A stretch of DNA of 64,000 nucleotides from Sulfuracidifex tepidarius (GTDB lineage: Archaea > Thermoproteota > Thermoprotei_A > Sulfolobales > Sulfolobaceae), in NCBI RefSeq assembly GCF_008326425.1, contig NZ_AP018929.1, forward strand, positions 1,006,875 through 1,070,874, in the 5' to 3' direction. The first letter of the stretch is position 1. Each line of letters starts with the position of its first letter. The notes beneath the pieces were generated by a model that was not told the origin of the DNA, made no database searches, and worked only from the letters and a program-made list of their open reading frames with translations. Below, one piece after another: positions 42,069 through 45,217 of this stretch. Both the position numbers and the translations under genes were made by a program.

Positions 42069-42143
42069 GGACCCATAGCTCAGCTTGGATAGAGCGTCGG
42101 CCTGCGGAGCCGAAGGTCAGGGGTTCAAATCCCCTTGGGTCCG
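42069..42143 (+). tRNA. tRNA-Arg (anticodon GCG)
   Basis: A full cloverleaf: acceptor GGACCCA/TGGGTCC with discriminator G, D arm GCTC/GAGC, anticodon stem TCGGC/GCCGA with loop CTGCGGA (anticodon GCG, reading CGC/CGU codons), and T arm AGGGG-TTCAAAT-CCCCT. There is no intron, and CCA is not encoded. It starts at the base after the argS stop codon. Its 3' half is the kind of attachment site used by SSV-type integrases, and an integrase remnant lies just downstream. Confidence 0.95.
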
Positions 42144-42148
42144 CTATA

Positions 42149-42338
42149 TTAGGGGGATACCCCCAAAACCCCACTGCTATTCTCTTTCACTTTCTCGTAT
42201 GTATCATCAACGTCAGTTAAAGGGCCTACGTAGCGCTCCTTTACGTTACCGCCTTCATTCTCTAGCTTGTAAACGTAATACCTACCTTTCCCTCAAGATA
42301 TAATCCCCGAACTTATAATGGCTTTGTTTTTCCGTCAT
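42149..42338 (-). pseudogene. decayed N-terminal fragment of an SSV-type (fusellovirus) integrase, int(N)
   Basis: Minus strand from ATG 42338: the reading matches the start of SSV1 integrase as I remember it: [12 protein letters not shown], then after a frameshift near 42285 [19 protein letters not shown] and DTYEKVKE, ending at TAA 42151-42149. Beyond that the tRNA 3' half, read on the minus strand, gives DPRGFEPLTFGS, like the attP-encoded DPPGFEPGTSG of SSV1. SSV integrases split on integration and leave int(N) beside the tRNA, as here. A TATA box remains at 42367-42374. The C-terminal half was not found in this window. Confidence 0.85.
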
Positions 42339-42736
42339 TTCAGGCGTAATGCGGTTGTTAAAACGTGTTTATAAGCCTTGACAGCATATTAGTTTTACAG
42401 TTTAGATACTATATACTTAGTTTTCCTGTTCCATTTAGTGAAACTAACAGGAAACTTCATACAACAAACCTATTATGTTTTTCCCATTCTTATAGTAAAT
42501 AAATAACCTTACTTTAGTCTTTCTTAAGAAAAACTTTTGCTTCTTTAAATGGAGCATGTTGCATTCCGTCTATAAGTTTGGACGTAATTCTCAGCTTCCC
42601 CGGTAGACAGATTTCTTACCTTTAGCAGGCTCATGCGACGTAATACCTTCTTTCTATTAGCTATAATAACGAAGTAATACCAGGAAAAAGGGGGAAAGGA
42701 GAGATAAGTTTCAGCTCATAACATATATGGACTAAC
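42339..42736. other. AT-rich residue of an integrated element; no intact gene
   Basis: This holds the remnant int promoter (TTATAAAC on the minus strand at 42374-42367). It also has a hairpin with arms AGTTTTCCTGTT (42419-42430) and AACAGGAAACT (42446-42456) that pair except for one bulged T, and the palindrome TTTCTTAAGAAA (42520-42531). About 40 open codons occur on the minus strand near 42550-42680 but match nothing I recognise. The nrdJ promoter must lie at the right end. Most of the captured element seems to have been deleted. Confidence 0.5.
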
Positions 42737-45217
42737 ATGGAAGCTGTGTCTATATTATCGTTGAAGAATCTGAAAGTATCCAAGAGGAATCAAAGAATTG
42801 AAGAGTTTTCTCCAGTGAAAGTCCTTTCAAAACTCCCTTTACCTCAGGACGTTACAGATTCCATAATTCAGGACATTTCTAAGAACGCGAAGGACAACCT
42901 AATAGATACCAAGACAATTTCAGACATAGTAGAAAGGAACCTGATAGAGAACTCTCTAAAGTTTCCTTCATTTTTAGACTACGCCAGGAGATATGTGCTG
43001 GCTAGGATATACAACCATGTTTTCGGGAAAGGAGGATGGAAGGACTTCGACGAGAGAGACCTCCTCCTGTCATATAACGCATTGAAAGTGCTTGAAGCTA
43101 GATACCTGCTCAAGAACCCTGACACGTTGAGGTATGTAGAGACCCCACAGATGATGTTTAGGAGGGTCGCCAATTTCCTAGCTAAGGTAGATCTATCTTA
43201 TGGTAAAACAGAGGAAGAAGTTAGGAAAGTGGCTGATAGGTTCTATGAGGTCATGAGCTCATTGAAGTTCCTTCCAAACACTCCGACCCTAATGAACAGC
43301 GGGACTAGACTAGGAGTTCTATCCGCGTGCTTCGTTCTGCCAGTGAGGGACTCAATGACTACGCCTGAAGGTGAGGGAATATACGATACATTAAGGGCCA
43401 TGGCTTTAGTACATCAGCAGGGTGGAGGAACTGGGTTCGACTTCTCTGAGCTGAGACCAAAGGGAGACACTGTGGCATCTACTGCAGGCGTAGCGTCTGG
43501 TCCTATATCATTTATGAAGATCTTTGACGTATCCACGGACGTGGTAAAGCAGGGAGGGAAAAGGAGAGGTGCCAACATGGGGATAATGCATGTCTGGCAT
43601 CCAGACGTGAGAGATTTCATAAAGTCAAAGACAGGGCAGTTAAAAGACGCTCAACTTCAGAACTTCAACATATCCGTTGGAATGTATGACTATTTCATGA
43701 GAGCCGTGGAGAGGGAGGAAGACGTCCCGCTCATCAATCCTAGGAAAACCAAGGTTCCCGGAAAAGGATGGGACTACTATATAGTGAAGGCCAGAGGCTA
43801 CATGGACGAGGAGTACGTTCAGGAGTTCATACTTAACGAATTGGAGGAGAAAGGAGGGTCAGTGTGGCTAGACGAGAGTGCCTTCGTTACAGTAGATGAA
43901 GCTATGGTGATAGCTGAGAGGGAAGGTGCAGTCACGGGTAGGGTTAACGCTAGGGCTGTATTTGACGAGATAGTGAGGGGAGCGTGGGACAGCGGAGACC
44001 CGGGAATAGTATTCATAGACGAGATAAACAGGAGACACCCAATCTATTACGTGTCTAAAATCCAAGCTACTAATCCTTGCGCGGAGGAACCATTGCTCTC
44101 GTGGGAGTCGTGTAACTTGGGTTCTATCAACCTAGAGAAGTTCGTAATAGAAGGCGACAAACCCACCATAGACTGGGATTCTTTAGCGGAGACAATAACT
44201 TACGCAGTGAGGATGCTTGACAACGTCATAGATGCCAACCGTTATCCTTTAAAGCAAATAGAGGACGCGACCAAGAAGACCAGGAAGGTGGGCCTAGGAG
44301 TGATGGGGTTCTCGCGTCTTCTGGTGAGACTCGGTATCCCTTACGATAGCCCCGATGCACTTTACGTGTCTTATAATTTAGCGAAGTTCGTGTATTATCA
44401 CGCCTTTAAGGCATCCATAGAACTAGCATCAGAGAAGGGTTCCTTCCCAGCTTATAACCCGCAGTTATACCGTGACATTTTCGATACTGCGAAACCTTTT
44501 GCAGACATGTTGGAGATCTTGTCAATAAAGCCTCAAGTTTCACCTTCAGTAAGGAAAATGATGGAGAGGGCAGAGAAACTGGACTTCTCCGAGCTGAAGG
44601 CATTGAGGGTCAAGAACGGTCTAAGGAACTCTACCGTCATGTCAATAGCTCCAACCGGGACTATCTCCATCATAGCAGGCACGTCGTCGGGAATAGAGCC
44701 TCTCTTTGCCCTTGCGTTCATAAGGAATGTTGCAGTAGGGAAGTTCATGGAGGTCGACCCGCTCTTCTTGGAGTATCTTAGGAAATATGAGTTAGACGAT
44801 CCAGAGGTGGTAAGTAAGATAGCTGAAACTGGCAGTGTATCTGAGAACGTTTTCATGCCTAGGACAATAAGGAACATATTTAGGACAGCACATGAGGTAG
44901 GCCCGGAGTATCACCTCCTTCACCAAGCATGTTGGCAGCAGTGGAATGACTCGGGTGTATCCAAGACCATAAACATGAGGTCGGAGGAGACTCCAGAGAC
45001 GGTATCGAAAGTTTACTTGAGTGCATGGAAGTTAGGAATAAAGGGGATCACTGTATACAGAGACAGATCTAAGTCGCAACAAGTCATATACTTCGGTATA
45101 AAGAAGGAGAAGGAGGAATTAGAGAAGAAGAAAGAGATGGGCCTTAGGCTGGATAAGAAATCCATGGTAGAAGCATCGGAGACCTACGCTGGAGGTTGCA
45201 AGACTTGCGAGCTGTAA
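42737..45217 (+). CDS. nrdJ: ribonucleotide reductase, class II (adenosylcobalamin-dependent)
   Basis: It reduces ribonucleotides to deoxyribonucleotides. An N-terminal ATP-cone-like segment is followed by the catalytic barrel. [20 protein letters not shown] and [21 protein letters not shown] (active-site Cys) are present, as is the [17 protein letters not shown] loop. The protein ends in CKTCEL, the redox-active Cys pair. At 826 aa it is full length and not split by an intein. A cobalamin cofactor fits the absence of class I or III partners nearby. Confidence 0.93.

Follow-up and report, generated by a model that had tools for sequence, protein, structure and literature searches.

A decayed SSV-type int(N) remnant at tRNA-Arg(GCG) of Sulfuracidifex tepidarius and a proposed renewal of integrase scars beside tRNA genes

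An element with a suicidal integrase is considered trapped after its integration. These class I integrases have been reviewed (PMC8371274), and in a model put forward by Redder, Badel and others, recombination between related integrated elements swaps their int(N) and int(C) parts (PMC8371274). In S. islandicus, intN fragments have been reported at tRNA Glu-TTC, Ala-GGC and Pro-GGG (PMC3718332). A feature of this kind lies beside tRNA-Arg(GCG) in a 64,000-nucleotide stretch of Sulfuracidifex tepidarius DNA (the window). As in S. islandicus, it is an N-terminal remnant that overlaps the tRNA gene, and the rest of the element is absent; the difference is that approximately 20 such fragments are present per genome here and that replacement at conserved sites is absent from the papers found. 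With the integrases of SSV1 (ORF D-335) and pSSVi it shares the PF07935 domain, an att site read through as protein and the promoter layout, but in the window the gene is split and interrupted by frameshift and stop, and the catalytic part is missing. The suicidal-integrase model likewise relies on homologous recombination between related elements: there, the products are chimeric integrases, whereas in the process proposed here the element would be deleted and its stub renewed. Although int(N) fragments beside tRNA genes were already known, their renewal appears to be new in the open literature searched, as no description of it at conserved scars was found among the open papers. A search on short-homology recombination in Sulfolobus found no useful literature.

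The features of the window site are listed below in window coordinates. Here and throughout, G000 is the window's own genome, G025 a congener and G026 the nearest sister.

42069-42144, plus strand: tRNA-Arg(GCG), found with ARAGORN; the 3' half of this gene serves as attachment site (attL).
42106-42141, minus strand: tRNA 3' half read antisense as the att peptide DPRGFEPLTFGS, in the third frame; similar peptides occur in viral integrases.
42149-42151, minus strand: premature TAA of the int(N) frame (frame translation).
42152-42164, unstranded: small hairpin GGGGG ATA CCCCC directly 3' of the tRNA; other int(N)s have longer versions of it.
42152-42292, minus strand: main int(N) piece (47 aa, ending in VSP), with PF07935 (frames, tblastn, Pfam).
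42285-42338, minus strand: first int(N) piece (18 aa) with the start codon, one frame away from the main piece (frames; comparison with other int(N)s).
42353-42384, minus strand: integrase promoter, with the TATA-like CTTATAAAC at 42367-42375 between inverted-repeat arms (alignment with SSV1, ASV1, pSSVi and SSV21).
42397-42571, unstranded: DNA between the viral similarity and conserved host sequence, not alignable with G026.
42572-42736, unstranded: region upstream of a class II ribonucleotide reductase gene (42737-45217), conserved in G026.

Positions 42145-42338 (minus strand) encode the N-terminal part of an SSV-type integrase, as a preliminary description made from the sequence alone had proposed. 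The unbroken 47-aa piece by itself matches PF07935, the family of the SSV1 integrase N-terminus, with an E value of 3.8e-18 and 66 bits (cut-off 22), and it also matches PHROG families of the SSV1 integrase protein. The translated search suggested earlier gave the expected answer: tblastn against 50,697 phage records returned 38 matches, all of them fuselloviruses, the best with 65% identity (E 1e-9). Chance is excluded as the source of this similarity. The remnant had been called SSV1-like; its nearest relatives are five other int(N)s in its own genome, and pSSVi-like integrases are closer to it than that of SSV1. Similarity to viral DNA extends to about 42396, slightly further than was claimed. 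The TATA box upstream of the dead reading frame is indeed preserved: this region can be aligned with the promoters of the SSV1, ASV1, SSV21 and pSSVi integrase genes and has their layout, a TATA-like element flanked by imperfect inverted-repeat arms. An inverted repeat, GTTGCCAA..TTGGCAAC, surrounds the promoter TATA at L036, L037, L038 and L039 as well as in the window, and is a possible operator. A G/C-rich hairpin of the GTGGGGGATACCCCCAC type right after the tRNA 3' end is kept across most int(N)s, including that of the window.

The frame is lost at the end of the first int(N) piece by a short deletion near 42285-42292, and the main piece ends at the TAA, which is the stop previously placed at 42149. 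A single frameshift near 42285 had been reported; the frameshift exists, but there are two frame changes in total, as the att peptide (correctly read from the tRNA 3' half) lies in a third frame and needs a second change to join int(N). With these frame changes and the stop, there is no open reading frame for a functional integrase or int(N) protein, and the stub is a pseudogene. The ORF listing contains no minus-strand ORF of at least 40 aa over the remnant, which had been described as invisible to the ORF track. Homology to PF07935, an antisense position beside the tRNA with the att peptide, and a promoter upstream identify it as the int(N) of a class I partitioned integrase; no intact orthologous ORF with an unrelated function was seen in the sister genomes. 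Near the window tRNA, we found neither the int(C) with catalytic domain (PF16795) nor the attR (second copy of the tRNA 3' half) of a provirus, in agreement with the view that only int(N) remains at the site. The genome-wide search for int(C), also proposed earlier, found a single one, which belongs to an element at tRNA-Ala(CGC). These results support an SSV-type integration at tRNA-Arg(GCG) of which an ordinary, decayed int(N) is left. The word fossil suits the remnant, but not simply in the sense of a single fossil of one old infection, because this stub is one of approximately 20 of a kind whose int(N) is replaced over time at conserved sites.

The order argS - tRNA-Arg - ribonucleotide reductase is shared by G025, where the site is empty and 154 bp separate the tRNA from the gene; this spacing is 592 bp in the window and 514 bp in G026, which has its own int(N). 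On this comparison of sequences, the integration at the window site postdates the split from G025. The window int(N) groups with five other G000 int(N)s (98/94), and that of G026 groups with pSSVi (100/93). Common descent of the two is rejected by an AU test of a smaller tree in which they form one clade (p 0.002, from about 180 columns). The two int(N)s are 73% identical, with no significant difference from the combined flanks, and a mosaic history is possible because the 37 bp after the tRNA are nearly common to both. Probably one of the two genomes, G000 or G026, had its int(N) replaced after their split, a history that is moderately supported by these short data.

The 332 bp of the remnant region have relatives at many further positions in the genome. 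Protein and profile searches identify approximately 20 int(N) loci in G000, roughly half (10) intact and about 10 broken, and their neighbours are Arg, Val (three), His, Ser, Thr, Gly, Phe, Ala (several), Gln (two), Asn and Met tRNAs; the genome has 45 tRNA-model matches, 44 of them over the cut-off. Two int(N)s of G000 (L103 10181-10420 and L105 10901-11120) adjoin isolated tRNA 3' halves where the complete tRNA gene is missing; one of these halves resembles tRNA-His, and both read as displaced att sites. PF07935 is almost confined to Sulfolobaceae, and a search of 31 genomes of this family gave 197 int(N) matches versus about 32 int(C) loci (E below 1e-9; both totals summed across genomes). 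Two of the genomes have no int(N). The int(N)s cluster by genome, with 49 changes versus 67 when shuffled (0/200 shuffles). Four int(N)s of G028 (L138, L141, L142) share a TAA at codon 4, as if they came from a common donor or had been converted by one another.

The one int(C) of G000 lies in a complete 5.4-kb SSV-type element at tRNA-Ala(CGC) (L101 6386-11921; G000:C1:801385-806920). Its att repeats are perfect and its int(C) is divergent (PF16795, E 1e-24); behind attR lies an older int(N). Similar elements of about 6 kb are present in G028 and G030. We mapped 15 complete elements, and in five of them attR is immediately followed by an older int(N): G000 Ala-CGC, G030 Ala-TGC, G023 Gln-TTG, G027 Val-GAC and G020 Gln-CTG. 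Two of these sites are found in both states: the Val-GAC site is tandem in G027 but carries a stub, with the same right flank, in G028 and G030, and at Ala-CGC the tandem form of G000 corresponds to a stub in G026. A host segment encoding S-adenosylhomocysteine hydrolase and an FKBP-type isomerase (L096 8326-10509 in G000; L226 4513-6599 in G025) follows tRNA-Val(GAC) in G000 and in two Sulfolobaceae of another genus, and tRNA-Val(TAC) in G025; it has moved between the two tRNA-Val genes, perhaps by means of an integrase.

Replacement is visible at six orthologous scars when different species are compared: the flanks are 91-99.8% identical, but int(N) is only 66-89% identical (p 3e-6 to 5e-58). 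The pairs are close species that align through both flanks, taken as fetched and not at random, and the p values treat sites as independent.

Val-GAC (G030/G028): int(N) 66%, flanks 99.6% (99.4-99.8%), p 5e-58.
Gly-CCC: int(N) 74%, flanks 98.7%, p 2e-34.
Gln-CTG: int(N) 71%, flanks 96%, p 3e-23.
Arg-TCG: int(N) 74%, flanks 95.5%, p 6e-19.
Pro-TGG: int(N) 78.5%, flanks 92%, p 7e-7.
Ala-GGC: int(N) 88.6%, flanks 97%, p 3e-6.

The Val-GAC island begins at the end of the tRNA and stops within the inverted repeat of the int promoter, and the linker directly 3' of the tRNA has been exchanged as well. Beyond the right edge, old viral and host DNA are nearly identical. As flank identity resumes inside the old int promoter, the scar is common to both genomes and only int(N) has changed. 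AU tests reject same-site clades for Val-GAC and Gly-CCC; the Arg-TCG clade is not rejected (p 0.20). At Tyr-GTA the difference between int(N) and flanks is marginal (p 0.046), the Ser-GGA pair G013/G015 shows no replacement, and the Ser-GGA int(N) of G014 looks mosaic when compared with that of G015.

The best explanation, to which we assign a probability of about 0.8, is that the remnant in the window is a decayed int(N) from a partitioned integrase of SSV/pSSVi type and that such scars are renewed by insertion and recombinational deletion. On this account, a circular element integrated into the 3' half of tRNA-Arg(GCG) via its own integrase, splitting the integrase gene; int(N) remained next to the tRNA, and later deletion removed the body, int(C) and attR. 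A later element of the same specificity would then enter on the tRNA side of the old int(N), and the resulting order would be tRNA - int(N)new - body - int(C)new - attR - int(N)old. The two int(N)/promoter regions would form direct repeats, and homologous recombination between them would remove the body, int(C) and attR, so that a single stub would remain, with its int(N) from the newcomer and its right flank from the old scar. Stubs, tandem forms and replaced stubs are all observed; this last deletion we infer, none having been caught in action in the genome comparison. The renewal model predicts the excess of int(N), the many intact stubs, the absence of attR and the positions of the islands. 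A mini-element with its own attR was considered for the minimal scars and rejected, as no attR was found. Whether stubs are self-renewing scars in the fuller sense, such that an existing stub lets the cell delete any later SSV-type element at the same tRNA through ordinary recombination of direct repeats and every round exchanges the stub for the int(N) of the newcomer, we judge to be an evenly balanced question.

Exchange with incoming viral DNA is the main rival, because two crossovers give the same product. Here, incoming viral or plasmid DNA with its tRNA 3' half, int(N) and promoter, or else another int(N) from the same genome, would overwrite the stub by allelic exchange or gene conversion, with no integration. 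Identical islands would result, and the clustering of int(N)s by genome, the common codon-4 stop in G028 and the mosaic appearance of Ser-GGA in G014/G015 all favour such exchange; the tandem intermediates in 5 of 15 elements do not, and the swapped linker at Val-GAC makes a donor from another tRNA site unlikely there and speaks against ectopic gene conversion as the sole cause. We regard exchange, such as that with a virus of matching specificity, as a tentative alternative. The stubs could also be plain neutral scars, left by separate insertions in each species and random deletion of the body, with no renewal, as might be expected from the decay of about half of G000's own copies and from the decayed Arg, Asn, Gln-TTG and Ala-GGC sites, which are occupied in G026 too and empty in G025. 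Random deletion would not spare int(N) so often (197 versus about 32), and the shared, near-identical right flank at Val-GAC holds the old int promoter and upstream viral DNA, so that this scar existed beforehand. Neutral scarring is contradicted at Val-GAC and Gly-CCC and may still hold for some sites, including that of the window; as a general account it is unlikely.

Two further proposals give the stub a function. Selection might keep int(N) as a small host gene, for example as a putative dominant-negative blocker of incoming integrases: many copies are intact, int(N) mediates integrase multimers (PMC8371274), and in pXQ1 and XQ2 of S. solfataricus only int(N) is transcribed (PMC8371274). 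About 10 of G000's 20 copies are broken, however, copies are replaced rather than conserved, two genomes lack int(N) altogether, and the low dN/dS of int(N) may stem from its viral phase (a dN/dS test of domestication is itself unusable because same-site pairs are replaced, not orthologous). We find retention as a host gene quite improbable. Alternatively, the old stub might aid the newcomer, with int(N)old - att - int(C)new forming a hybrid integrase gene that makes integration reversible. The old int(N) and new int(C) do meet head to tail at the attR of five elements, but the parts are out of frame in all five, which therefore form no hybrid integrase, and stops are present in most old stubs; this idea is very hard to sustain.

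Renewal by insertion and deletion bears on how these loci are read. The first integration at a conserved site cannot be dated from the int(N) now found there, and replacement of int(N) would explain the large excess of front over back halves in these archaea. Several complete genomes of possibly culturable Sulfolobaceae contain stubs. If the model is true, the scar count per tRNA would be a record of repeated infection, and host recombination would remove elements cleanly, providing the host with an integrase-free way out.
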